Positions 3,457 to 25,940 of a stretch of DNA of 29,303 nt are shown in pieces. The stretch comes from a virus. Location: IMG/VR virus record IMGVR_UViG_3300044987_002095, positions 1 through 29,303 of that record, one strand, 5' to 3'. Position 1 is the stretch's first letter. Each line of letters starts with the position of its first letter. Under the pieces are notes generated by a model. That model saw nothing but the letters and a program-made list of their open reading frames with translations. It was not told where the DNA came from and did no database searches. A program made the position numbers and the translations under genes.

Positions 3457-3968
3457 GGTGTTGCGTATTCTCCGTGATTCACAAAGTCTCCGTGCAACAA
3501 AATCCTTAATGATTGAGTCGCCTGATTAGCTTCTTCTGCTATGTCAAAACATGTGGTATTGTGCGTTTTGTAGTTTTTGCAAACTCTTCCATAAAATCTC
3601 CCCGTTGAGTTTTTATAAACGCCCTTAAATCCAGTTTGTGTAGTTTTTCTAAATTTTGCGTTATGGCAGTTTTCAGATCGGGACGCTTCCCGAAGATTGC
3701 AAATTCTATTATCCGCTCTCTCTCCGTTAATATGGTCGATGTCAAATCTCGGCCATTGCTCGGTTGTTATCAACCAAGCAATCCGGTGAGCCAGTAGCCT
3801 TTTATTATTGATACCTATGTATCTATATCCAACCAAACCGACTACCCCAGCAGTGTCTCCCTTAAAAACCCGACGACTAACCTTTTTCTTCCAAGTGAAT
3901 TCTCCTGTCTCGGAATTATAATCAAGAAGCTCGGTTACTTCTTGCAGAGATGGCAAATTGTTATTCAT
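3453..3968 (-). CDS. HNH endonuclease with AP2-like tail (homing-type), 171 aa
   Basis: The N-terminal half contains the HNH core: LLAHRIAWLITTEQWPRFDIDHINGERADNRICNLR (split here in description only: H of AHR, then DHINGE, then N-x-x-N-L-R). The C-terminal part, TGFKGVYKNSTGRFYGRV, resembles the AP2-like DNA-binding domain often fused to phage HNH homing enzymes. The base composition is clearly more AT-rich than the flanking genes. It nonetheless overlaps both neighbours by exactly 4 nt, so its insertion preserved translational coupling. It probably makes site-specific nicks or breaks in phage DNA and acts as a selfish or exclusion gene; that role is inferred from the family. Confidence 0.85.
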   Translation of the reverse strand: MNNNLPSLQEVTELLDYNSETGEFTWKKKVSRRVFKGDTAGVVGLVGYRYIGINNKRLLAHRIAWLITTEQWPRFDIDHINGERADNRICNLREASRSENCHNAKFRKTTQTGFKGVYKNSTGRFYGRVCKNYKTHNTTCFDIAEEANQATQSLRILLHGDFVNHGEYATP

Positions 3969-4750
3969 GGCGCGGGAGTGTAATCACGATCAAAACACCA
4001 CAACCGGAAACACGCATGGAACGCGACCAGCGCCGCTTCCCCGTTGTCCCATTCCTTCGGAAACACTGGTCCCGGTGCGTCGGATGGAATGATGAGTGAA
4101 ATCAGGACTGGCAGCGGTTCGCCGGGTTCGCGGAGACAATCGCCATAGGCGGCGAGCTGCATCGACCATTCCTTGTAAAACGACGGAGCACGCTTGCCGA
4201 CGAGCTTCTGCGACTTGAAGTCGATCACCGCACGGCGACCGTCCTTCAACATCGCGTGAACGTCAAGGCGGCCAGCATAGCCCAAATCACCGACAACCGA
4301 TTGTTCGGCTTGGATGGTGGTTTCCACGTTCTCACGCAGCCACGTTTCCGCGCCTCTCACATAGTCGAGGATCTCGCCGGTGGCGGTGAATGCACCTCCG
4401 GTCAGCAGGTGCTCTAGCTGTTCGTGCAAGAGCGTTCCCCACTCGGCGGCCTCTCTGCCGATTCGATCAGACTCGACGGCAATTCGGGAATGCCATTGGT
4501 CTTCCGGTTCGCCTGGATTCTGCGGGGTGGCGAGTGCCGCCCGGATCGCGTTGTCCTGCAACCACGTATTCAAGGCGGGTTTCGCCTTCATGTTCAGGAT
4601 GTTCGTCACCGATGGCACAAGGTTGAGCTTACGGGCGTCGGCGACGTTCGTTGGACGTGGTAGGCCGGTGGTCTTGGCGATGACTTCGTGACAGGCGGTG
4701 CCGTCGCGGTGATACCAGTGGGATGATTGTTCGGTGCGGGTGATTTTCAT
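3965..4750 (-). CDS. PD-(D/E)XK exonuclease (RecB/Cas4-like), 261 aa
   Basis: A PD-(D/E)XK nuclease in the style of phage recombination exonucleases. The active-site block is GYAGRLDVHAML (~158-169) followed by AVIDFKSQK (~175-183), and a Q-x-x-A-Y helix (MQLAAYGD, ~197-204) completes the RecB-type signature. An upstream GTLLHEQLEHLL helix matches the G-x-x-x-H motif of the RecB/lambda-exonuclease group. It would resect double-stranded DNA ends to feed the Sak4-type recombination system encoded upstream. The start codon overlaps the 58-aa gene's stop as ATGA. Confidence is high for the fold and moderate for end resection. Confidence 0.8.
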   Translation of the reverse strand: MKITRTEQSSHWYHRDGTACHEVIAKTTGLPRPTNVADARKLNLVPSVTNILNMKAKPALNTWLQDNAIRAALATPQNPGEPEDQWHSRIAVESDRIGREAAEWGTLLHEQLEHLLTGGAFTATGEILDYVRGAETWLRENVETTIQAEQSVVGDLGYAGRLDVHAMLKDGRRAVIDFKSQKLVGKRAPSFYKEWSMQLAAYGDCLREPGEPLPVLISLIIPSDAPGPVFPKEWDNGEAALVAFHACFRLWCFDRDYTPAP

Positions 4751-11456: not shown

Positions 11457-12641
11457 ATGCACGTCGTAAAATACAAGTCCGTTTCCGTGAACGTCTATCC
11501 ATGGCGGCACCCATCCGGAAGAGAGTATTGGCGGTTCAAGCAGGGAGGCAAGGACGTGACCCGCAGCACGCTCGAAAAAGCCAAGCGGGACGCGAAGAAG
11601 CACGCTCAGACGATTTACCGTGGCAGTCTGGATCTAAACATCCTGGAAGCGGATGAAATCCGGAAACTGCAACGCATTGTCGAGGCGGGGGCACTCCAGC
11701 ACGTCGAGGAGTTCCTGCTATGGCATTCCCGGAAAGCACCTAAGAAACTCGCCATTGACGCTTACACCGAATTTCTCGCTTTGAAGGAGAAGAACGCCGG
11801 TCGTTCGACTCAGAACGTCCGAACCATCCGAAAGCACGTCAAGCCGTTCATCGACATCCACGGGAAATCCGACCTCGCATCCATCACCGTGAAGGACATC
11901 GAGGATTATATGGAATCCAACCCGAAAAACAAAAACCGGACCCGCCGCAACATCAGGGCGTCGCTGGTGACGTTCTTCCGGTGGTGCCGACTCAGGGAAT
12001 ACCTCCCCGATGAACGCACGGCGGCGGAGAAGGCGGAGATCCCGATGGTGACTGACACGGTGCCAGAAACCTACACGCCCGACGAGCTGCGCGTCTTGCT
12101 GGCCAATGTTCGCCCGGATTTCCGGGCATGGCTCGCGGGCGCCGCGCTGGCGGGCATCAGGACCGATGAGATTTGCCCGATCGCCGGGAGTCGGAAACCT
12201 CCGCTGGATTGGAGCGACATTGACTTCGAGCGCGATCAGATCGTTGTAAGCCCTGCCACGGCCAAGATGAAGCGCCGGAGGGTTATTCCCATGTGCGCGG
12301 CACTCAAGGCGATCCTGCTGCCGCTCAGGAAGCCCCAAGGCCCCATGCACGCTACAATCGCCCCCACCCGGAGCGACGGCAAGAAGATCGTGGCAGAAAC
12401 CGCCCGGCTGGGCGCATTCATCGGCGGATGGAAGGACAATGCCCTGCGGGCATCTTTCATTTCATTCCGGTGCGCCCTGAAAGGAATGGGCGTCACGGCC
12501 ATGGAGGCCGGAAATTCGGAGGATGAAATCAAGAAGTCCTACCTGGATGCCAAGAGTCCCGCCGAAGCGGAGGCTTGGTTTTCAGTGTCCGCGTTTTCGC
12601 CGATCACCGAACATTTACCGAACACAGCGAAAAAACCTTGA
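11457..12641 (+). CDS. int: tyrosine-recombinase integrase, PVC type, 394 aa
   Basis: A three-part phage integrase: an N-terminal arm-binding region (FKQGGKDVTRSTLEKAKRDAKK), a core-binding SAM-like region (~90-190), and the catalytic domain. Catalytic residues are Arg I in GIRTDEI, a Lys near KMKRRRV, and box II NALRASF, where the usual His of H-x-x-R is Asn. The segment AGNSEDEIKKSYLDA contains the position usually G-H-x and the nucleophile Tyr. EAEAWFSV follows, a signature I associate with Verrucomicrobiota/PVC integrases. The 3' end of the gene overlaps an arm-type repeat, and attP lies immediately downstream, so this is probably the enzyme that integrates the phage at the tRNA/tmRNA-end core. 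Confidence 0.9.
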   Translation: MHVVKYKSVSVNVYPWRHPSGREYWRFKQGGKDVTRSTLEKAKRDAKKHAQTIYRGSLDLNILEADEIRKLQRIVEAGALQHVEEFLLWHSRKAPKKLAIDAYTEFLALKEKNAGRSTQNVRTIRKHVKPFIDIHGKSDLASITVKDIEDYMESNPKNKNRTRRNIRASLVTFFRWCRLREYLPDERTAAEKAEIPMVTDTVPETYTPDELRVLLANVRPDFRAWLAGAALAGIRTDEICPIAGSRKPPLDWSDIDFERDQIVVSPATAKMKRRRVIPMCAALKAILLPLRKPQGPMHATIAPTRSDGKKIVAETARLGAFIGGWKDNALRASFISFRCALKGMGVTAMEAGNSEDEIKKSYLDAKSPAEAEAWFSVSAFSPITEHLPNTAKKP

Positions 12642-12977: not shown

Positions 12978-13156
12978 GGCTTTTTCAGTTTATCCCGGCA
13001 AACCACCCTCCCGGCTGCGATTTCTCGGAGCAATGCGCGCCAACTCGGCCGGCCGGAATAGATTCCGGCGCGTGCGGTGGCGTTGCATTTTCTGGAGATC
13101 GCCAGCAATGATTTGATTTCGTCGGCGTCGAGGTCGATGGTGTGGCGTTTTTTCAT
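12974..13156 (-). CDS. small basic protein, possibly RHH-like, 60 aa
   Basis: A 60-residue protein: [21 protein letters not shown] looks like a strand and helix of RHH proteins, and [15 protein letters not shown] like a second helix. No clear family. The start overlaps the recombinase's stop and its own stop overlaps the zinc-ribbon start, each by 4 nt. It may be a DNA-binding accessory factor of the recombinase. Confidence 0.5.
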
Positions 13157-14118
13157 GCGGTTCTTCGTAAAGGGATAATATTTCTCGCTACTTCCGCATC
13201 CAGCGGGCTATCCACCGTCGTCTTGCCGGCGGTATGCAAGTAAAGCTGTGTTGTTTCCAAACTCGTATGGCCGAGCTGTTCTTGAATTGTTTTGATGTCC
13301 ACCCCATCGCGCAGTAGGCCGGTGGCATAGCTATGGCGGAGCGCATGCGGGTTCACCCGTTGCGTGATGCCTTGCAGTTCCGCCGCCTCCTTTAGCGCCG
13401 TCACCAGTCGTTTGTCAGTCGCATGCCAACGATCCGTCCCATGGACTTTCTGAGATGGAAAAAGCCAATACCATGGCAGCGTCCCAAAGGTTCGGCGGCC
13501 AAACTTGCGCATCAGACTTTCCTCATTGTGCGGGCAGATGATGCCGCTTGCGCGGTCGCGCTCCCATTGCATCCGGCAGGCCATGATTTGTTGTTCCAGA
13601 TCCGCCACCAGGAATTCAGGAATCCGCAGCGCGCGGGACTTCCCGCCCTTGGCCTCATAAATTGTCAACACCCGATCCTCAATCCGCACATCCTTCAGCC
13701 GCAGCGTCAGCATGTCGCTTTCGATCCGCATGCCGGTTCCTGCCAGCAGTCCCGCTTGCAATCGCGGCACCCTTGGCATGGTTTGCATCATGCCGAGGAT
13801 TTGGCGCATCGTGAGCACCGAGCGCATTGGCTTCGATCGGTTGCGCTTCGGAAGATCAAATTCCCCAAACTCCTTCAGCAAAACTTTTTCATAGAAAAAC
13901 TTCAGTGGATTCAAAGCGTGCCACACACTGTTCGATGAAATCTTTTTCACGCTGGCCAGGTGGTTCAGATAGTCTTGCACCCCGGTGATTTCTCCACGCT
14001 TCATCATCCCCGCAAACTCCGCGATCGTCGGCCCGTAGGTTTTTCGAGTATTCCGAGCCAGCCCCGCATTCAGCGCAGCCGTTTCGAAAGCCTTCATTAC
14101 TTCTTCAATCGTTCTCAT
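13153..14118 (-). CDS. integron-integrase-like tyrosine recombinase, 321 aa
   Basis: Catalytic residues are all present: Arg I in GTGMR (~150), HALRHS (~271), GHTS (~293) and the nucleophile in TTQLYLH. Beyond these it has features of IntI proteins rather than XerC/D: the extra segment [21 protein letters not shown] with the P-W-x-W-x-F pattern, then TDRWHATDK, and the ending VDSPLD that parallels the V-R-S-P-L-D of integron integrases. Length also fits IntI. It heads a coupled three-gene operon. A typical cassette array is not visible next to it, so it is better called IntI-like than a complete integron. Confidence 0.75.
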
Positions 14119-17501: not shown

Positions 17502-17908
17502 ATCGTTTTCCCTTCATGCGCGGCGGTGCCTGCGCTTTTTGCGTTCGGCAGAGATGAAGATCCGCAGATGAAGCATGTCCCATCCATGGCTCGGCTGAAG
17601 TTGCAAACATGTTCGCGCAATTTGCGCTCGCGTTGTTCCGTCACCGTTTCTGGTTGGCGGATTTTCACCCACTCCCCGCATTCCGGCCCACGCTCCTTCC
17701 AGACTTGGAGTGAGCGCATGACTTGTCGTGCTTCAACTTTCTGCGCCATGTATCGGCTTTGATCGTCATCCGCGCCGTAGGCGAGCACCTGCATAATTTC
17801 CCAGCGGAATGACGGAGCGCCACGCCACCAGTAGAATCCGGGAGCATCGGGCCAGCCGAACAAGGCATCGCTGCCAACCGGCACTATCTTTTCAGTTTCT
17901 TTGCTCAT
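17498..17908 (-). CDS. hypothetical phage protein with C-terminal Cys pair, 136 aa
   Basis: The N-terminus WPDAPGFYWWRGAPSFRWE resembles small phage proteins with a G-x-Y-W-x-R start that bind nothing known. A single C-F-I-C pair (CFICGSS, ~112-118) plus an upstream H-V-C could bind zinc. It is coupled to the 85-aa gene downstream. Function unknown. Confidence 0.55.
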   Translation of the reverse strand: MSKETEKIVPVGSDALFGWPDAPGFYWWRGAPSFRWEIMQVLAYGADDDQSRYMAQKVEARQVMRSLQVWKERGPECGEWVKIRQPETVTEQRERKLREHVCNFSRAMDGTCFICGSSSLPNAKSAGTAAHEGKTI

Positions 17909-17965
17909 GGTCGTTTCATTTGCTGCCGGTGGCAGGATTTTTGTCGTTCATTTCACTGGAAGAGA

Positions 17966-17986
17966 GGCGGGGGAAGAACCCCCGCC
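17966..17986 (-). terminator. GC-rich hairpin after the 97-aa gene
   Basis: GGCGGGGG (17966-17973) and CCCCCGCC (17979-17986) form a perfect 8-bp stem with a 5-nt loop, 9 nt beyond the stop of the leftward 97-aa gene. It is a strong stem but lacks a clear U-tract, so it may stop or stabilise the transcript rather than act as a canonical terminator. Confidence 0.5.
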
Positions 17987-17994
17987 CGGTCGCA

Positions 17995-18288
17995 TCATGC
18001 GGCATACCATCCGCCATTCCGCTTCGTGAACCACAGCACCCGCATCGAGCGGCTGACGATGGCGTAGCGGTTTGCGCCGTCGTAGTAGCGGACTTCGCCG
18101 CCCTCATTGCGCTTGTCCAAGTGGCCAAGGTCTTTGGCACCAAGAGCGCGGCGGGCTTTCTCTTGCTTGTCCGAGTGGCGATCCATTTCCTTGAGTTGCT
18201 TGTCGGTGGCAAAGATTGTTCCGATTCCGTTTTCTTGGATACGGTTTCCGTTGATGATTGCTGAGTTGATGATGGTTTCGAGTTGCAT
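17995..18288 (-). CDS. hypothetical phage protein, 97 aa
   Basis: A mixed alpha/beta protein: MQLETIINSAIINGNRIQE, a lysine-rich helix (KQLKEMDRHSDKQEKARRALG) and a C-terminal YYDGANRYAIVSRSMRVLWFTK sheet. It is divergent from the HTH gene at 18390 and shares its control region. One GCATTGCA operator overlaps the start codon. No family recognised. Confidence 0.55.
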   Translation of the reverse strand: MQLETIINSAIINGNRIQENGIGTIFATDKQLKEMDRHSDKQEKARRALGAKDLGHLDKRNEGGEVRYYDGANRYAIVSRSMRVLWFTKRNGGWYAA

Positions 18289-18360
18289 TGCAGTGGTTGG
18301 TTGACGGCGTTACTCTGTCCGCATTGCAGACACTTGGCAAGGATTATTTTCTGCATTGCA
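18285..18360. promoter_or_regulatory. divergent control region with three GCATTGCA boxes
   Basis: GCATTGCA occurs at 18285-18292 (over the leftward ATG), 18321-18328 and 18353-18360, in one orientation, 36 and 32 bp apart; the core T-G-C-A-n-T-G-C-A is palindromic. Rightward, TTGCAT (18356-18361), 16 nt and TATGGT (18378-18383) form a promoter ending 6 nt before the ATG at 18390. The HTH protein encoded there is the likely binder. Confidence 0.55.
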
Positions 18361-18389
18361 TACTTTTTTTTATCGGGTATGGTTTGCCC

Positions 18390-18569
18390 ATGACCTTCGC
18401 CGAATCGCTTGCCGAGTTTTCCGCCGCCCAGATCGTCGCCGCCCTTGGATGTCCCCGACAGACGGCCTATGCGTGGCTTGATGGCACGCGCCAGCCCCCC
18501 GAATGGCAGCAAGCGCTTTTCCTTGCGGCGATCCGTCGGCACGCGAAGAGAAGAGATGCCGGAAGATGA
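18390..18569 (+). CDS. YdaS/Cro-like HTH protein, 59 aa
   Basis: A short HTH: ESLAEFSAAQIVAALGCPRQTAYAWLDGTRQPPEWQQALFLAAI, with the A-x-x-x-A-L-G-x-x-x-x-x-x-x-W-x-x-G-x-x-x-P-P pattern of Cro-type proteins. The basic tail is RRHAKRRDAGR. It lies opposite a leftward operon and next to three GCATTGCA boxes, so it probably regulates that switch. The predicted -10 is so close to the ATG that the mRNA may be leaderless. The longer frame starting at 18288 is a shadow. Confidence 0.65.
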   Translation: MTFAESLAEFSAAQIVAALGCPRQTAYAWLDGTRQPPEWQQALFLAAIRRHAKRRDAGR

Positions 18570-18640
18570 CGGCAGAGAACAAGACGGTGATCCCGATGGA
18601 GACCCGCCCCGAGTCAGGCTTTCAGTGGTGGCTATCATGA
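18566..18640 (+). CDS. micro-gene, 24 aa
   Basis: A 24-codon frame (MTAENKTVIPMETR then PESGFQWWLS) whose ATG overlaps the HTH stop as ATGA and whose TGA overlaps the next frame's ATG as ATGA. The double 4-nt overlap is the main support. No function can be given. Confidence 0.35.
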   Translation: MTAENKTVIPMETRPESGFQWWLS

Positions 18641-18822
18641 TTTTTGGTGTGGCTGGCTGGCGCTCCCGTCTCCACGGGATACCTCTGCGTTCGGCGGAAC
18701 CAATCCCGGAACCAATCCCGGGAACGACTTACGATATTGGTCAGCATGAGATTCCACGAGGGTTTTCACGCACAATGCGACTGACCAATACGCCCGACTT
18801 TACGGAACATCAAGAAAAATAA
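18637..18822 (+). CDS. hypothetical protein, 61 aa
   Basis: A 61-residue frame starting MIFGVAGWRSR, coupled to the micro-gene upstream by ATGA. It contains a 12-nt tandem duplication giving EPIPEPIP. A 10-bp inverted repeat (18735-18744 and 18781-18790) lies inside it, so part of the sequence may be structural or regulatory. Weakly supported as a protein. Confidence 0.35.
   Translation: MIFGVAGWRSRLHGIPLRSAEPIPEPIPGTTYDIGQHEIPRGFSRTMRLTNTPDFTEHQEK
18735..18790. repeat. 10-bp inverted repeat, 36-nt spacer
   Basis: TATTGGTCAG (18735-18744) and CTGACCAATA (18781-18790) are perfect complements. They lie in the end of the 61-aa frame, just before the promoter region of the HTH/helicase operon. 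A long-loop stem or a paired protein site are both possible. Confidence 0.5.
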
Positions 18823-18902: not shown

Positions 18903-19082
18903 ATGTCCAAAATTTCCATTCCTCGCTTACTTAAAAAGAAGGACGTGGCGGCGGCGTTATCCTGCTCTGTGCGCCACGTCACCCACTTAATCCAGACAGG
19001 CAAACTCACGTCGATCAGCCTCGGCGCTAAAACCGTGCGCGTCACTTTTGAATCCGTGGAAAACTTTATATCTGGAAAATGA
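18903..19082 (+). CDS. HTH_17/excisionase-like DNA-binding protein, 59 aa
   Basis: PRLLKKKDVAAALSCSVRHVTHLIQTGKLTSISLGAKTVRVTFESVENFIS (one domain) fits the excisionase/MerR-type winged helix: V-A-x-x-L-x-C-S-x-R-x-V-x-x-L-I-x-x-G-K-L, then a basic strand and a final helix. Its TGA overlaps the helicase ATG by 4 nt, so it is co-expressed with replication. It could be an origin-binding or regulatory partner, or an excisionase. The upstream region holds CCACGAAACATCAAG on the minus strand, a copy of the dispersed motif. Confidence 0.65.
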   Translation: MSKISIPRLLKKKDVAAALSCSVRHVTHLIQTGKLTSISLGAKTVRVTFESVENFISGK

Positions 19083-20689
19083 ACGCCATGGCCCTTGACC
19101 CATCCGATTACGATTTCGAGCCTGAAAACGCCCAACCACCCAAGGACGACCTGCCGGATTACAAACCGCCATCTTCACCCCTCCGCCTAGTTCAGCCCGC
19201 CACCGAGCCAAACCCGCCCCCGCATTCGGTAGGAAGTGAGAAGTCTATCCTCTCCCTCTACTGGGCATGGCCGGAAACTCGACCAGCGATCCAGCAAGCA
19301 GGCGTTTCCGAGGATCATTTCTATTCTCCCGGAAACCGGGTAATATGGAATGCTCTCGCAGCTCATCCCGACGCCGACCTCCCGTTGCTCGCTCAACGCC
19401 TGCTCGACTCCGGTCAACTCGACCGGGCAGGCGGGGCTGCATCCTTGGCTGATATTTACAGTTATGCGCTGCTCCCTCAGTGTCTTGACCAGCATCTTCA
19501 GATCCTCGCCGAGAAATCAGCCGCGCGGTCAGCTATGACAGCATCGCGTAAGCTCATCGACGACCTCGAAGCCAGTCCCGGCGAGTCCGCAGAAATCCTC
19601 TTGCGCGCCGTCACCAGCCTCAAGGACATCGCAGACGCTGCTGGGTCCACGTCCCCGTTACTCGCTCGCGCCTACGCTCTTCAATACTCACCATTCGCCC
19701 GACCTCCCGCCGACGAGGTTCTCATGCAAATCGGCCAGGCACCCATTGCCGCCCGTGGAAACCTCACCGTCCTGCAAGGCAAAGCCAAGGTCGGCAAGTC
19801 TGCGGTCGTCGCCAGCATCCTCGGCGCAGCCCTGCGTGGCAGATTCCAAGCCAAGGGCGACACGCTGGGCATTGACTGGACAGCGGATCGCCACACCGGC
19901 GCGGTGATCCACCTCGACACCGAGCAATCCCCTGCCGACTGGTGGGCGCTCGTCACCCGCGCATTCGCCCGCAGCGGCAACAAACAATTCCTCGACCGGT
20001 TGGTTTCGATTCCTCTCGTCCAGTTCAGCCGGCGCGATCGTTTGGCGATCCTTGAATCCGTCATCGCCGACCAGATCCGCCAACGCGGCACGGTGGATCT
20101 GGTCATCATCGACGGCGTGGCCGACCTCTGCACCAGCCCAAACGACGAGGAGGAGTCTTTAGAGCTGGTCGCTAAACTCATGGCAATCTGCCACAAACAC
20201 AACGTGGCGATAGTGTGCATCCTCCACGAAAACCCCGGCACCGATCAGGGAAAAACTCGTGGGCATCTCGGGTCAGAACTCAACCGCAAAGCCTTCGCCA
20301 ACCTCCGAATCGACAAGGACAAGGACGGCGTTTCGACTCTTTACGGCACCGATATGCGCAAGCGGGACATCCCTCAGAATCAGGGCGTTTGCTTCGTCTG
20401 GAACGATGAGGAACACATGCACACGGTCATTGGATCAGCCCGTGAAGTTGAGGCCGAGCGCAACTCCGAGAAGTCTCAACGGTCGAAATCCCGCAAGCTG
20501 GATCAGGACCGCGCAGGGCTCGAAGACATCTTTGGAGATGAAGAATCCATGGCATACTCGGAGCTTTGGCCTGCCGTCGTGGACCGATTCGCGGTCAAGG
20601 AGCGCATGGCCAAGAACAAAGTTTCGGAGTGGATCAAGGCGGGAGTCGTCGTCAAAAACGCATCGGGGGAATATGAAATCGGCCCGTGA
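19079..20689 (+). CDS. replicative helicase with DnaB-like N-domain and RecA fold, 536 aa
   Basis: Residues ~50-175 resemble the DnaB N-terminal domain (SEKSILSLYWAWPE, DHFYSPGNRVIWNAL, SLADIYSYALLP). The ATPase domain has Walker A GKAKVGKSAVV (~234-244), a LDTEQSPADWW strand in the place of motif 1a, and Walker B VDLVIIDGVADL (~339-350), typical of RepA/AAA_25-type phage helicases. A C-terminal winged-helix-like segment (AYSELWPAVVDRFAV) may bind DNA. It is the main replication protein visible in the window; no primase is recognisable. The tandem starts MNAM leave the exact N-terminus open by three residues. Confidence 0.85.
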   Translation: MNAMALDPSDYDFEPENAQPPKDDLPDYKPPSSPLRLVQPATEPNPPPHSVGSEKSILSLYWAWPETRPAIQQAGVSEDHFYSPGNRVIWNALAAHPDADLPLLAQRLLDSGQLDRAGGAASLADIYSYALLPQCLDQHLQILAEKSAARSAMTASRKLIDDLEASPGESAEILLRAVTSLKDIADAAGSTSPLLARAYALQYSPFARPPADEVLMQIGQAPIAARGNLTVLQGKAKVGKSAVVASILGAALRGRFQAKGDTLGIDWTADRHTGAVIHLDTEQSPADWWALVTRAFARSGNKQFLDRLVSIPLVQFSRRDRLAILESVIADQIRQRGTVDLVIIDGVADLCTSPNDEEESLELVAKLMAICHKHNVAIVCILHENPGTDQGKTRGHLGSELNRKAFANLRIDKDKDGVSTLYGTDMRKRDIPQNQGVCFVWNDEEHMHTVIGSAREVEAERNSEKSQRSKSRKLDQDRAGLEDIFGDEESMAYSELWPAVVDRFAVKERMAKNKVSEWIKAGVVVKNASGEYEIGP

Positions 20690-20755
20690 ACGCCTAAATC
20701 TTCCCACCATGACCTTCTCTGCCACTCTGCCGCGCCTTGCGCTTCCTAACGAAAA

Positions 20756-20779
20756 ACCCGCTCCGAACTCGGAGCGGGT
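20756..20779 (-). terminator. rho-independent terminator for the leftward XRE operon
   Basis: ACCCGCTCCG (20756-20765) and CGGAGCGGGT (20770-20779) form a 10-bp stem with loop AACT. Read leftward, the stem is followed by TTTTTCG, a U-tract. It lies between the convergent helicase and XRE genes and could partly act in both directions. Confidence 0.8.
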
Positions 20780-20816
20780 CATGGTTGTGTGCGGCGTCTT
20801 GTTGAGTGTCTTTGGG

Positions 20817-21050
20817 TTAGGCGAGCGGTGCGAGCGCACGGAGTGCCAACGTGGACGGCATCCGGCCAGACTCCCAACCCTCGACGGTGCGGCGGGAAAC
20901 CCCGATCTCGTCTGCGAGCTGCTGAGTGGTCAATCCGGCCTTCTCGCGGATCGCTTTGATGCCGGGGCCGTAGTCCATGACGGACCCGTCATCCGCGAGG
21001 ATGACGGGCTGGCCATAGGGACTGGATGGGTGATGGGTGGTGACTCTCAT
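20817..21050 (-). CDS. XRE-type HTH regulator, 77 aa
   Basis: The C-terminal 50 residues are an XRE HTH: IKAIREKAGLTTQQLADEIGVSRRTVEGWESGRMPSTLALRAL, with L-T-x-x-x-L-A-x-x-x-G-V-S-x-x-T-V-x-x-W-E-x-G-R. The N-terminal 27 residues (a proline/glycine-rich stretch and VILADDGSVMDYGP) are unusual. It follows the 117-aa gene by 3 nt under a promoter with twin TTACGCA-type palindromes, its likely targets, and is followed by a strong terminator. Confidence 0.8.
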   Translation of the reverse strand: MRVTTHHPSSPYGQPVILADDGSVMDYGPGIKAIREKAGLTTQQLADEIGVSRRTVEGWESGRMPSTLALRALAPLA

Positions 21051-21053
21051 GGC

Positions 21054-21407
21054 TTAGGCAAAAAGGCTATTGGCTTTGTGATCGTCGGCCTCAAACGCTG
21101 CCTTGATCTCATCGGCATTGGCTTCGGCTTCGGCCCACTCGACAAAATCGGAGTAAGCGGCCTCGCCGATCATGCAGTTGGTAAAATTGTGGGACATGCG
21201 CTCATTGTTGCCGTCGTAGATGTCACCGTCCTCGTCCAACGAGATGTATGCGATATCACTTGCTCCGCACTTGATGAGGACCGCAACGCTGCTGTCGTTG
21301 TATCCCTGGATGCACCAAGTCCAGTCGCCCTTGAGGGACTTGACCCAGTTGCGGGAGCCGTAACGAGGGGTGGAGGTGGTCTTGCTGATTTTGATGGTCG
21401 TTGTCAT
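21054..21407 (-). CDS. hypothetical protein at head of an XRE operon, 117 aa
   Basis: An acidic protein with a short basic start (TTTIKISKTTSTPRYGSRNW), a beta-rich middle (DWTWCIQGYNDSSVAVLIKCG, DIAYISLDEDGDIYDG) and a C-terminal helix rich in Ala and Glu. No family recognised. I chose the ATG at 21407, not the upstream 21461 start, because the latter lies over the predicted -10 element. The leader CCACCAAAACAACCAAGACC is A/C-rich. The gene-plus-XRE layout mirrors 16009-16391. Confidence 0.55.
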   Translation of the reverse strand: MTTTIKISKTTSTPRYGSRNWVKSLKGDWTWCIQGYNDSSVAVLIKCGASDIAYISLDEDGDIYDGNNERMSHNFTNCMIGEAAYSDFVEWAEAEANADEIKAAFEADDHKANSLFA

Positions 21408-21457
21408 GGTCTTGGTTGTTTTGGTGGTTTGGGTAGTCGCGTCGTGCAACTGGGAAG

Positions 21458-21511
21458 ACAATACGCACGGTGCGTAAAAACAACAAGCTTTATTTTACGC
21501 AAAATGCGTAA
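21458..21511 (-). promoter_or_regulatory. promoter with twin TTACGCA-type palindromes
   Basis: Reading leftward, TTGTTG, 17 nt and TATTGT (21463-21458) form a weak promoter. The palindrome TACGCACGGTGCGTA (21462-21476) fills its spacer and TTACGCAAAATGCGTAA (21495-21511) lies upstream, 34 bp centre to centre. The downstream XRE protein probably binds both. Confidence 0.6.
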
Positions 21512-21674
21512 TTCTTTTTTCCGCCCCGAAAGGGGTCCACTCAACGCTGATGGTCTGGGACGGCGGACGTTGGACGCCGATTCCAAGTGAGACGTTCCCC
21601 GCCGTTCCCAGCACCTACTTGTTCAGCTCTTTTGGGGTGGTGTGAAAATAAACGAAGAAATATTGAAAAGCGTG

Positions 21675-21703
21675 TTGACGGAATCAAAAGGAAAGGGTAT
21701 CTC
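21675..21703 (+). promoter_or_regulatory. candidate rightward promoter
   Basis: TTGACG (21675-21680), 17 nt and TATCTC (21698-21703) precede the ATG at 21738 by 34 nt. The -35 is near consensus and the -10 weak. It would start the rightward transcript of the 91-aa and 58-aa genes. Confidence 0.45.
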
Positions 21704-21737
21704 TATTCACGTAAGCGAAAGCGAACCCCAAAACAAA

Positions 21738-22013
21738 ATGACAACCACAATCGAAATCGGAACTCAGGTCGAAAGAATCGCCAGTGACTACACCAACGGA
21801 CGCAAGGGCGAGGTGATCGAAATCAACGAAGGCCGCGCCCGCGTCGCTTGGAGCGACTCACCCCGCACATGGGTGAAGTTCTCAGCCCTCAAGGTGATCG
21901 ACCAAAAAGTGATCGCCGGGCCATGGAGCGAAACCCCAAACATGAAGAGCCACAAAGCAGCCCGCACCGTGACTCTCGCAGACGGAACCACCTACCGGGA
22001 ATATCGGAAATGA
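21738..22013 (+). CDS. KOW/SH3-like small protein, 91 aa
   Basis: The centre reads VERIASDYTNGRKGEVIEINEGRARVAWSD then RTWVKFSALKVI, the layout of a KOW/SH3-type barrel (K-G-x-V then a V-x-W strand) that could bind DNA or RNA. The C-terminus is basic (SHKAARTVTLADGTTYREYRK). The ATG at 21738 follows the A/C-rich leader GCGAACCCCAAAACAAA; an upstream GTG at 21642 is inside the promoter. Confidence 0.5.
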   Translation: MTTTIEIGTQVERIASDYTNGRKGEVIEINEGRARVAWSDSPRTWVKFSALKVIDQKVIAGPWSETPNMKSHKAARTVTLADGTTYREYRK

Positions 22014-22186
22014 AACCAACAAGAGGAGGCCCCCGAAAGGGGGCCGGGCGGAAGCCGACAGGCCGCACCGTCACAACGTCCAGCATCAACCTACCGCCCG
22101 AGCTATGGGACAAGCTGGATGCACTACGCGGGGAACTCACGCGCTCGGCATGGATCGCCGCCAAGATCAAGAATGCACGACTCTGA
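22010..22186 (+). CDS. ribbon-helix-helix protein with basic arm, 58 aa
   Basis: A basic arm RGGPRKGAGRKP is followed by SSINLPPELWDKLDALRGE and TRSAWIAAKIKN, the strand and helices of a RHH protein. Coupled to the upstream gene by ATGA. It lies directly before the GTGCAAT array and could be its binder. The stop is followed by another copy of GAACAGTTAATTA. Confidence 0.6.
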   Translation: MKPTRGGPRKGAGRKPTGRTVTTSSINLPPELWDKLDALRGELTRSAWIAAKIKNARL

Positions 22187-22263
22187 ATATCTGCTGAACA
22201 GTTAATTAAGCCGACCAGGCCGCGAATAACTACACCCCAAAAACCGCTACTCAAACGAACACA

Positions 22264-22448
22264 GTGCAATGGTGCAATATTGGTGCAATTTTTAGTGCAA
22301 TATTGCACCCCCGCCGGGTAGGTGCAATGCCCTTGGTGCAATGGTGCAATATTCCCCCCTCTTTAGAGGGGAATTGCACTATTGCAAATTGCACTACCGG
22401 CGACAGCATCGGAAATGCTGGAAATTAGTTAGAACGAAAACATTGCAC
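22264..22448. repeat. iteron-like array of 11 GTGCAAT/ATTGCAC boxes
   Basis: GTGCAAT occurs at 22264, 22272, 22283, 22295, 22322, 22336 and 22344, and its complement ATTGCAC at 22302, 22373, 22388 and 22442, with a one-base variant at 22381. A palindrome, CCCCTCTTTAGAGGGG, sits at 22356-22371 between the direct and inverted groups. The region 22187-22501 holds no other gene; its right end is a C/A-rich tract with ACTCTCCACA repeats. It is a candidate origin, partition or master regulatory site. Confidence 0.8.
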
Positions 22449-22501
22449 TGCACCAACTCTCGACAACTCTCCACAACTCTCCACGACTCGACAAACCGAC
22501 C

Positions 22502-22696
22502 ATGACCACCGGAATCCACATCATCCCGACCAACTCGACGGACCACAGAGATCCCCGCTGTTTGCGTCAGGATCAACGTGGCGGGCGTTTCGCGGATCTT
22601 GTGGGCGTCGGTGCCAAATCGGACTGGCTGACTCCGAAATCGATCCTAGAGATATTCAAACAAGCGTTTGAATATTGTCGCATCGTCGGATCATGA
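22502..22696 (+). CDS. hypothetical protein, 64 aa
   Basis: A 64-residue frame with a polar first half and a helical end (SDWLTPKSILEIFKQAFEYC). The ATG follows a C/A-rich leader (CTCGACAAACCGACC), like early genes of this element. No family recognised; expression is suggested only by leader and position just after the iteron-like array. Confidence 0.4.
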   Translation: MTTGIHIIPTNSTDHRDPRCLRQDQRGGRFADLVGVGAKSDWLTPKSILEIFKQAFEYCRIVGS

Positions 22697-22712
22697 TTCA
22701 AAAATATGAATC
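22695..22712. terminator. weak hairpin after the 64-aa gene
   Basis: GATTCA (22695-22700) and TGAATC (22707-22712) form a 6-bp stem with an AAAATA loop at the end of the 64-aa gene. It is followed by an alternating CG tract (22716-22725). A weak stop or spacer at best. Confidence 0.25.
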
Positions 22713-22784
22713 CCCTCGCGCGCGCGGGTGCGGACGCGAAAATCCGTTCTTGCCTAAAAACTACATTTGCAAGTAATTTGCGTT

Positions 22785-23183
22785 ATGGACCTGATTGAAG
22801 CAATCAACTCAAAACTCCCCGAAGGCCGCCGACCGATCACCAGCCTCTCGCACCCAGGAGAGATCAACCGACAGATTGCCGAGGTGCTCGCCGAAACCGT
22901 TTCGAGTGCCGAAGTAGGGGAGACGATTAAAAGTTTGCTCACGGCTGACAAGCGAACGAAGGAAGGCGGCTACGAACCAGACTGGCGCGCCCGTGAAGCC
23001 GGCGCAAAGCTCTGGCTCGCGTATCAGGTCGGCCTGCCCGTCCAACGCCAAGAGATCCACCAGACGATCACCACGCGCTCCGAGGAGGAGAACATGAAGA
23101 CGCTGGCGAGTCCGGCGATGCTCGCGGCGATGAAAAGCTTGATTGCGAAGGCTGAAAATGTTCCACAGGATTCCGGAAAATAA
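22785..23183 (+). CDS. candidate small terminase subunit, 132 aa
   Basis: A helical protein with GEINRQIAEVLAETVSSAEVG and the segment YEPDWRAREAGAKLWLAYQVGLPVQRQ, a type often found just upstream of large terminase genes. The C-terminal part is helical and ends in a disordered tail. The small-terminase call rests on location and helical build, not on a firm motif. The ATG at 22785 is close to a weak promoter (TTGCCT at 22750). Its 3' end and the following 95 nt carry the GTGGAAC repeats, a possible packaging site. Confidence 0.45.
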   Translation: MDLIEAINSKLPEGRRPITSLSHPGEINRQIAEVLAETVSSAEVGETIKSLLTADKRTKEGGYEPDWRAREAGAKLWLAYQVGLPVQRQEIHQTITTRSEEENMKTLASPAMLAAMKSLIAKAENVPQDSGK

Positions 23184-24054: not shown

Positions 24055-24201
24055 ATGGATGCACCCGAATACATCACCGCGTTGGCCGAGGACATCAAAG
24101 AGACGATCGACGCCTATCGCGTCACTCATGGCCTAACGCTCGCCTCGGTTGTAGGTGTTCTGGAGGTGGTCAAGGTGGAGTTGATGCAGGAGGCGGAGTG
24201 A
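24055..24201 (+). CDS. small helical protein before terminase, 48 aa
   Basis: Two predicted helices (YITALAEDIKETIDAYRVTH, SVVGVLEVVKVELMQEAE). It ends in TGATG overlapping the terminase start, and its last codons contain AGGAGGCGGAG, the ribosome site of terminase. It may be a small head-packaging or regulatory protein. No family recognised. Confidence 0.5.
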   Translation: MDAPEYITALAEDIKETIDAYRVTHGLTLASVVGVLEVVKVELMQEAE

Positions 24202-25940
24202 TGGACATCGCCGAGCTTATCAAGGAAGCCGCTAAGTGGGACACCGCCGCTTGGATGGAGACAGGCGGGAAGATCGCCGATGACTCAGGCAACATCGTTA
24301 GCCCAACATGCAACGAGTTCCAACGGGACGTTAGCGACATCATCAAGTGGTGCCACGAGAACGAGCGTCCATGCCGAATGATTATTCTCAAGCCTCGACG
24401 CAAAGGAAGCTCAACCGTTTCAGTGGGTGCTGGATACACGCGATTGCAGGCACAGCGCGCAACAGGGTGCATAGCGGGTGGATCACACTACCAAGGCGGC
24501 AAACTGTTCGACATGCTCAAGATCTACGCGAACAACGACACGATCAACCCGAAGACGTGCAAGGTGCAGGACATGGTGGCGCGATTCAACAATGGATCGA
24601 GCATGGACCGGATGACGCTTGCCAACGCTGCGGCTGGTCGATCAGGTGGCTATCAGTTCCTCGTCGTTACGGAAATGGCCTTGCTGTCAAACGAAGGCGT
24701 CGCCAATGCCCCGGAAGTGGTGAGCGGCCTACTGAAGACGGTGAAGTTTCTGCCGGATACCATCGTTATCCTTGAATCCACGGCATCCGGCGCATCCGGC
24801 GACTACTACGACCGGTATCAGCGGGCGATCACGTTCGAGGAATTCAAGGCCGGACAGAACGGTTACATCAAAGTGTTCTATCCGTGGTTCTCATTCAGGG
24901 ACTCGCGCACCGATCCAGCAGGCGAGGCGATTACTAGCCCTGCCGACTACACCAGCTTCGAGAAGGAATATGCGGAGAAGTGGGAGCTGGATCTATGGCA
25001 GATGGCATGGATGCGGATGACTCTGCGTGACGAGTGTAATGGAAACTTCGACAAGTTTCAGGAAGACTACCCAAGCGACGAGTTCAGCGCATTCCTTCGT
25101 TCAGGCCGTGGCCGCTTCAGTATCGAAGGACTCGCATACCAGGACAAGCGCGCTCGCGAGAATCCGCGTGAGTTCGGAGTGCTGGAGTATCGCCCCGGAC
25201 CTGACCGCGTGCAATGGGTGGCGACGACCGAGCAGCAAGCGCGGGTGGTTCGATGGGAGCAGCCGCGAATCGGATGCCGGTATCTCATGGCGATTGACCC
25301 GATGACCGGTGCCAGTCAGACAGGCGGCGATGACCCCGACAGCCATGCGGTGTTTGTGCTGCGTGCCGGATTCTTGCAGCACGGCGTGTGGAATGAGCCG
25401 GCGGTAGTCATGCGGAATATGCTCCATGCGGACGGGCAGAGGTTTGGCGATTGGTGTGACATCGACGTGCTCGAAGAAGAAGTCTGGCGGATGGCGCGCC
25501 ACTGGCAGGCGTTGATCGTTCCCGAAATGAACATGGACAGAGGGTTGGTCGAGCTGCTGAAGCTGCGTGGCGACGTGGATATTTATCAACGCGAGATGTT
25601 CAACCGGCGCGAGCAGACGAAGACGACGGCACTCGGATGGATGACAGATCTGCGGACGCGACCGATGGTGATCGAAGGACTGGCACGGATGATCCGGGAG
25701 GCAGGCCGGGGGCAGGTGAACGAAGGCATCGAGATCCGTTGTCCATGGGCGATCAAGGAGTTGCGGAATTTCATCGTGAAGCCGAATGGGCGGAGCGAGG
25801 CAGCGACGGGGCATCACGATGATGCCGTGCTTGCGCTTGGATTTGGAAGCTATTGCCTGGACTCAGCGATTCCTTATCAGGAGCGGGTGAGGGAGTCGTA
25901 TATGCAGCGGGCGGCGGTGAAGAGAAATCAATGGTCATGA
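24201..25940 (+). CDS. terL: large terminase subunit, 579 aa
   Basis: The ATPase has a Walker A-like KPRRKGSST (~64-72) and a Walker B strand QFLVVTEMALL (~153-163), followed by a coupling motif in ILESTASG (~190-197). The C-terminal nuclease shows MAIDPMTGA (~364), DSHAV and the final HHDDAVLALG (~546), the acidic residues of the RNase-H-like terminase nuclease. It cuts concatemers and pumps DNA into the prohead. The ATG at 24201 is preferred over the adjacent GTG at 24198 because of the TGATG overlap and the AGGAGG 8 nt upstream, one of the few clear Shine-Dalgarno sites in the window. Confidence 0.95.
   Translation: MDIAELIKEAAKWDTAAWMETGGKIADDSGNIVSPTCNEFQRDVSDIIKWCHENERPCRMIILKPRRKGSSTVSVGAGYTRLQAQRATGCIAGGSHYQGGKLFDMLKIYANNDTINPKTCKVQDMVARFNNGSSMDRMTLANAAAGRSGGYQFLVVTEMALLSNEGVANAPEVVSGLLKTVKFLPDTIVILESTASGASGDYYDRYQRAITFEEFKAGQNGYIKVFYPWFSFRDSRTDPAGEAITSPADYTSFEKEYAEKWELDLWQMAWMRMTLRDECNGNFDKFQEDYPSDEFSAFLRSGRGRFSIEGLAYQDKRARENPREFGVLEYRPGPDRVQWVATTEQQARVVRWEQPRIGCRYLMAIDPMTGASQTGGDDPDSHAVFVLRAGFLQHGVWNEPAVVMRNMLHADGQRFGDWCDIDVLEEEVWRMARHWQALIVPEMNMDRGLVELLKLRGDVDIYQREMFNRREQTKTTALGWMTDLRTRPMVIEGLARMIREAGRGQVNEGIEIRCPWAIKELRNFIVKPNGRSEAATGHHDDAVLALGFGSYCLDSAIPYQERVRESYMQRAAVKRNQWS

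Follow-up and report, generated by a model that had tools for sequence, protein, structure and literature searches.

The stretch of viral DNA analysed here (an IMG/VR virus record of 29,303 bp, hereafter the window) contains 14 perfect copies of the heptamer GTGCAAT, 11 of which are packed into positions 22264-22448. This motif count confirms the eleven boxes, seven direct and four inverted, of an earlier note, which had called the array far beyond chance. Dinucleotide shuffles of the whole window contain 4.3 copies on average and 10 at most, so that none comes to 14. As a control, other viral contigs were cut into 3,450 segments of 320 bp; in 12 of these any 6-mer occurs at least seven times, and two of the 12 are themselves GTGCAA arrays. 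An RHH-like open reading frame precedes the array, as the earlier note stated, and a replicative helicase gene lies further upstream. The features are as follows.

22264, 22272, 22283, 22295, 22322, 22336 and 22344, plus strand: direct copies of GTGCAAT (n = 7)
22302, 22373, 22388 and 22442, minus strand: inverted copies of GTGCAAT (n = 4)
22381-22387 and 22448-22454: one-mismatch boxes in the array, ATTGCAA and CTGCACC, respectively
22264-22454, no strand assigned: iteron array including the one-mismatch copies, proposed replication origin
22356-22371, no strand assigned: 16-bp palindrome or GC hairpin, CCCCTCTTTAGAGGGG, with the boxes converging on it
19079-20689, plus strand: replicative helicase with DnaB N-terminal domain (PF00772), AAA_25 motor (PF13481) and C-terminal winged helix; proposed to act as initiator and to bind the iterons
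20462-20686, plus strand: C-terminal winged-helix domain, residues about 462-536, from AlphaFold2 models, winged-helix matches and box co-variation
20612-20614, plus strand: K512 codon, within the predicted recognition helix (508-521); boxes are of the GG/GTG kind where this residue is Lys and of the CC kind where it is Glu
20817-22186: genes between helicase and array, namely an HTH_3 protein (20817-21050, minus), two open reading frames (21054-21461, minus; 21642-22013, plus) and the RHH-like frame (22010-22186, plus)

The palindrome was described earlier as lying between the direct and inverted groups of boxes; it is present, but the separation is incomplete, the inverted copy at 22302 being on its left. 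Together with the flanking boxes, the hairpin forms a longer, cruciform-capable stem. Folded as single-stranded DNA, the core at 22336-22394 reached a z-score of -5.96, which no shuffle equalled. A reading of the hairpin as an intrinsic terminator was rejected, since a terminator scan did not list it, and an Rfam search of 20600-23000 returned no match. The cumulative GC-skew minimum falls at ~24 kb, 1.5-2 kb off the array, at a place where the genes change strand and in a contig that may be incomplete, and was for these reasons not counted as evidence. Directly past the last box, a 10-bp direct repeat, CAACTCTCSA, occurs three times in near-perfect form (22454-22489) and may belong to the origin. 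Elsewhere in the window, two integrase-like genes (11457-12641 and 13153-14118) lie 0.5 kb apart on opposite strands.

The helicase matches the two Pfam domains with E-values of 5e-7 (PF00772) and 1.5e-12 (PF13481), and Pfam detected no primase domain in it. Its AlphaFold2 model is DnaB-like, with a best Z of 20.8 to Escherichia coli DnaB (9oa1_D; rmsd 8.4, 345 aligned, residues 50-458), while its score against the curated DnaB equivalog TIGR00665, 30 bits, is below the cut-off of 385. At the C-terminus, the model displays a winged helix set apart from the rest, made up of helices 493-504 and 508-521 and strands 524-526 and 532-534, with a pLDDT of about 90; it falls outside the region aligned with DnaB and RSF1010 RepA. 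Taken alone, this domain only matched winged helices of a generic kind (Foldseek E 0.016 and VIA Z 8.3 at best), which point to no closer family, and all matches from a PDB sequence search were weak and non-specific.

Exchange of helicase and array in a sister phage

The closely related phage L020 encodes a terminase protein identical to that of the window, and the two sequences are 98% identical from 22647 to the end. On the left side, several blocks are 96-100% identical, with 17541-18785 at 100%. Only the stretch at about 19132-22647 differs. There, L020 carries a helicase that is 53% identical to the window helicase, followed, right past its stop codon, by an array in which the box is ACCGCAAAG instead of GTGCAAT. 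These boxes likewise surround a GC hairpin, GGCCCCCTTTAGGGGGGGCC. Of all genes in the swapped stretch, only the helicase is present in both phages. From this swap, we read helicase and array as a cassette exchangeable as a unit, each cassette having its own box. The four genes that separate helicase and array in the window look like cargo; the L020 cassette is devoid of them. A perfect 10-bp inverted repeat with a 4-bp spacer, ATATTCAAAC/GTTTGAATAT, is located at 22652-22675, near position 22647 where identity to L020 resumes, and may mark the recombination junction of the swap.

Helicases and arrays in relatives

Helicase relatives were collected from GTDB species genomes and viral contigs, most of them metagenome or prophage fragments; an alignment of the core motifs outperformed two-sequence alignments. 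Almost all homologous helicases from phages and genomes of Verrucomicrobiota have an array of their own behind them, with boxes converging around a hairpin. The boxes usually start directly past the stop codon, mostly direct upstream and inverted downstream of the hairpin, whose loop is in most cases TATA-like. In 28 of the 31 verrucomicrobial relatives, the top 6-mer past the helicase stop beats at least 95% of Markov shuffles. The array is displaced from the helicase in the window (1.6 kb, with four genes in between), in L189 (2.9 kb) and in L192 (about 0.4 kb). The earlier note had asked for the boxes to be sought in related phages: what is conserved is the array behind the homologous helicase, the box sequence itself varying. 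Based on these relatives, the host of the window phage is probably a member of the Verrucomicrobiota.

Boxes of the GTGCA type follow the helicases of L178, L181, L183, L186 and L189, the recognition helix of which resembles that of the window helicase (ERMAKNKV). Some homologous helicases are found without a nearby array: none was detected within the 13 kb read around that of L174, nor near those of L226 and L243. These cases (L174/L205, L226, L243) may be decayed elements or have another origin arrangement. Among the Bacteroidota relatives, L150-L157 displayed no consistent array directly past the helicase stop, and L060 has one.

We also scanned viral contigs with the box pattern only. Dense GTGCAA arrays, the box class of the window, were found in L122 and L060, in both instances directly after the gene of a distant AAA_25 helicase. 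In L076, L100 and L124, the GTGCAA array comes after a replication gene of another kind, PriCT_2/DUF3987-type, which has no relation to the AAA_25 helicase; this suggests that replication proteins use such boxes convergently. These three arrays (7051-7293 in L124) contain TATATA stretches.

Box sequence and the C-terminal domain

Among 27 non-redundant helicases, box similarity correlated with the identity of the C-terminal domain (Mantel r = 0.57). This correlation persisted once motor identity was accounted for (partial r = 0.475, p = 2e-4), whereas that between box and motor given the C-terminal domain did not (partial r = 0.04, p = 0.27). Hence, the box sequence tracks the C-terminal domain, not the motor. 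The pair L192/L193 has motors with 294 of 304 residues identical (97%) and C-terminal parts with 35 of 66, and the box is ACCGTCA in L192 versus AGGTTCA in L193.

In the first set of helicases, a rule became apparent by inspection: Glu at one position of the predicted recognition helix goes with CC boxes, and Lys with GG or GTG boxes. The rule was then applied to a held-out set of 16 helicases, 14 gathered after its formulation plus L224 and L225, of which 14 have arrays. All three Glu helicases had CC boxes and all eight Lys helicases, some of them close relatives, had GG boxes; the held-out Met and Arg helicases had GG boxes as well. Fisher's exact test (3/3 versus 0/8) gives 1/165, about 0.006, relatedness being ignored. 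Box orientation was scripted from the nearby hairpin, except for L192, which the script mis-oriented and which was read by hand from its TATATA hairpin. On a tree of the motors, the Glu/Lys label changes seven times, at least three of them on well-supported branches, and the box changes alike every time; the box labels were entered by hand, and three well-supported pairs are too few for significance. Taken together, these sequence comparisons with dozens of relatives suggest that the helicase recognises the boxes through its small tail domain, in which one key residue allows part of the box to be predicted.

Interpretation and known replication systems

We propose, with a probability of roughly 0.8, that the array is the iteron origin of a Verrucomicrobiota phage, and that the DnaB-fold helicase of this phage binds it through its C-terminal winged helix. 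Observed here are the array, its linkage to the helicase across relatives, the co-variation of box and C-terminal domain, and the cassette swap; from these we infer physical binding, loading of the helicase and activity as an origin. Several copies of the winged helix would bind the GTGCAAT boxes which, converging on the hairpin from both sides, would place helicase rings there, probably two; the duplex would then melt at the hairpin and replication start. This scheme is modelled on SaPI Rep, SCCmec Cch2 and PICI origins. Of the three functions considered in the earlier note, replication origin, partition site or decoy, the first is the best supported, through helicase-array linkage, swap and co-variation; the binders proposed there find no support.

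In an unlikely alternative, the helicase C-terminal domain does bind the array, but the main role of the site would be regulation or copy control, or termination of the helicase operon, rather than the start of replication. In its favour, relatives have the hairpin behind the helicase gene, and the iterons of iteron plasmids often control copy number as well. However, the array lies past the end of the helicase gene instead of at the promoter, 1.6 kb off in the window; absence from the terminator scan speaks against the terminator variant, and the variable box number and converging orientation fit the assembly of a nucleoprotein complex better.

It is very improbable that the RHH protein (22010-22186), one of the binders put forward earlier, contacts the boxes in the manner of omega, ParG or CopG-type proteins, for autoregulation or partition. 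Its gene adjoins the array, and omega-like RHH proteins bind arrays of 7-bp repeats. However, relatives 80-89% identical to it, in L004-L006, have no boxes nearby, and the L020 array exists with no RHH gene in the swapped stretch; this candidate was therefore rejected. As the product has no Pfam match and weak PHROG matches, the label RHH mainly comes from the look of the sequence. In addition, a Pfam scan of a subset of the window proteins found no known partition gene (ParA or ParB). Window 22010-22199, made up of the RHH-like gene and a few bases past its stop (GAATATCTGCTGAAC), recurs in the otherwise different phages L004, L005 and L006, as if it were a mobile cargo unit. After a distant RHH relative, L008 bears at 3640-4120 a long run of near-identical, pentapeptide-repeat-like GGTGCC-(A/G)AT-CTCAG units.

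The earlier note had also linked the array to CATTGCA operators at 18285-18360, and three copies are indeed present at about 18284-18360, at and upstream of an HTH protein (frame 18288-18569). That this or another regulator, such as the HTH protein at 20817-21050, binds both regions, which have ATTGCA in common, is the least probable reading, and a common binder was rejected, because L020 keeps 17541-18785 at 100% identity and yet has ACCGCAAAG boxes, indicating that operators and array are read by different binders, and because the HTH_3 gene is missing from the L020 cassette.

The proposed layout, an origin read by the C-terminal domain of a helicase, has precedents. SaPI Rep uses its C-terminal domain to read iterons located right behind its own gene, the C-terminal domain of SCCmec Cch2 binds a similar site (PMC7581432), and PICI origins are immediately 3' of rep (PMC6092414). 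As in these Rep-ori modules, known from Gram-positive and Gram-negative PICIs, and in the Cch2 system (PMC6092414, PMC7581432), the helicase has a C-terminal DNA-binding domain, here a predicted one, and two module-specific iteron sets lie just 3' of the helicase gene in nearly all relatives, with the displacement of 1.6 kb in the window. By contrast, iteron sets flank an AT-rich region in SaPI/PICI and here converge on a GC hairpin with a short TTTA- or TATA-like loop. Moreover, SaPI/PICI are satellites that depend on a helper phage; the window, which carries a terminase-like gene (24198-25940, PHROG terminase), is probably from a phage, possibly an incomplete one. Finally, Rep and Cch are DUF927 or D5/Primase_C-type helicases and the window helicase, with DnaB-N and AAA_25, has a DnaB fold. 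For this difference in motor type, we do not class it as a SaPI/PICI member.

The alpha protein of phage P4, with ori1/crr, is likewise a helicase with a built-in domain for origin binding, and recognises short iterons of either orientation; it is a fusion of a primase with an SF3 helicase. The window helicase differs from it by its DnaB-N and AAA_25 motor, with no primase domain found. pRN1 ORF904 resembles our case in that it ends in a winged helix and that a stem-loop, essential in pRN1, lies past the replication gene, as described in a paper that also compares pRN1 with P4 (PMC4234260). It differs as an archaeal prim-pol/SF3 protein with a large stem-loop without iterons. The window helicase has the same motor fold as DnaB and RSF1010 RepA, and its C-terminal winged helix lies beyond the region that aligns with them. 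To get to an origin, bacterial DnaB relies on an initiator and a loader, which are proteins distinct from it. In RSF1010, the iterons are the task of RepC (PMC4234260). Hence, the SaPI/PICI layout is known, and a DnaB-type motor with a readable specificity appears to be new. We found no description of such a helicase-array family in the literature, the incomplete coverage of which makes this weak evidence of novelty.

More generally, and as a tentative extension that we hold at somewhat below even odds, Verrucomicrobiota phages and elements, and some in Bacteroidota, may possess self-placing DnaB-type helicases that read their own origin without initiator or loader, through a near one-residue code (Glu for CC, Lys for GG), which would give a large number of helicase-origin pairs that exclude one another. 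Normally, no DnaB-family helicase reaches an origin unless an initiator and a loader assist; here, the helicase appears to carry a swappable origin-reading domain. If true, initiation without a separate initiator becomes testable in a simple system. The family would supply dozens of natural helicase-origin pairs in which the protein makes the box partly predictable, and would show where replication starts in Verrucomicrobiota phages that otherwise lack annotation.
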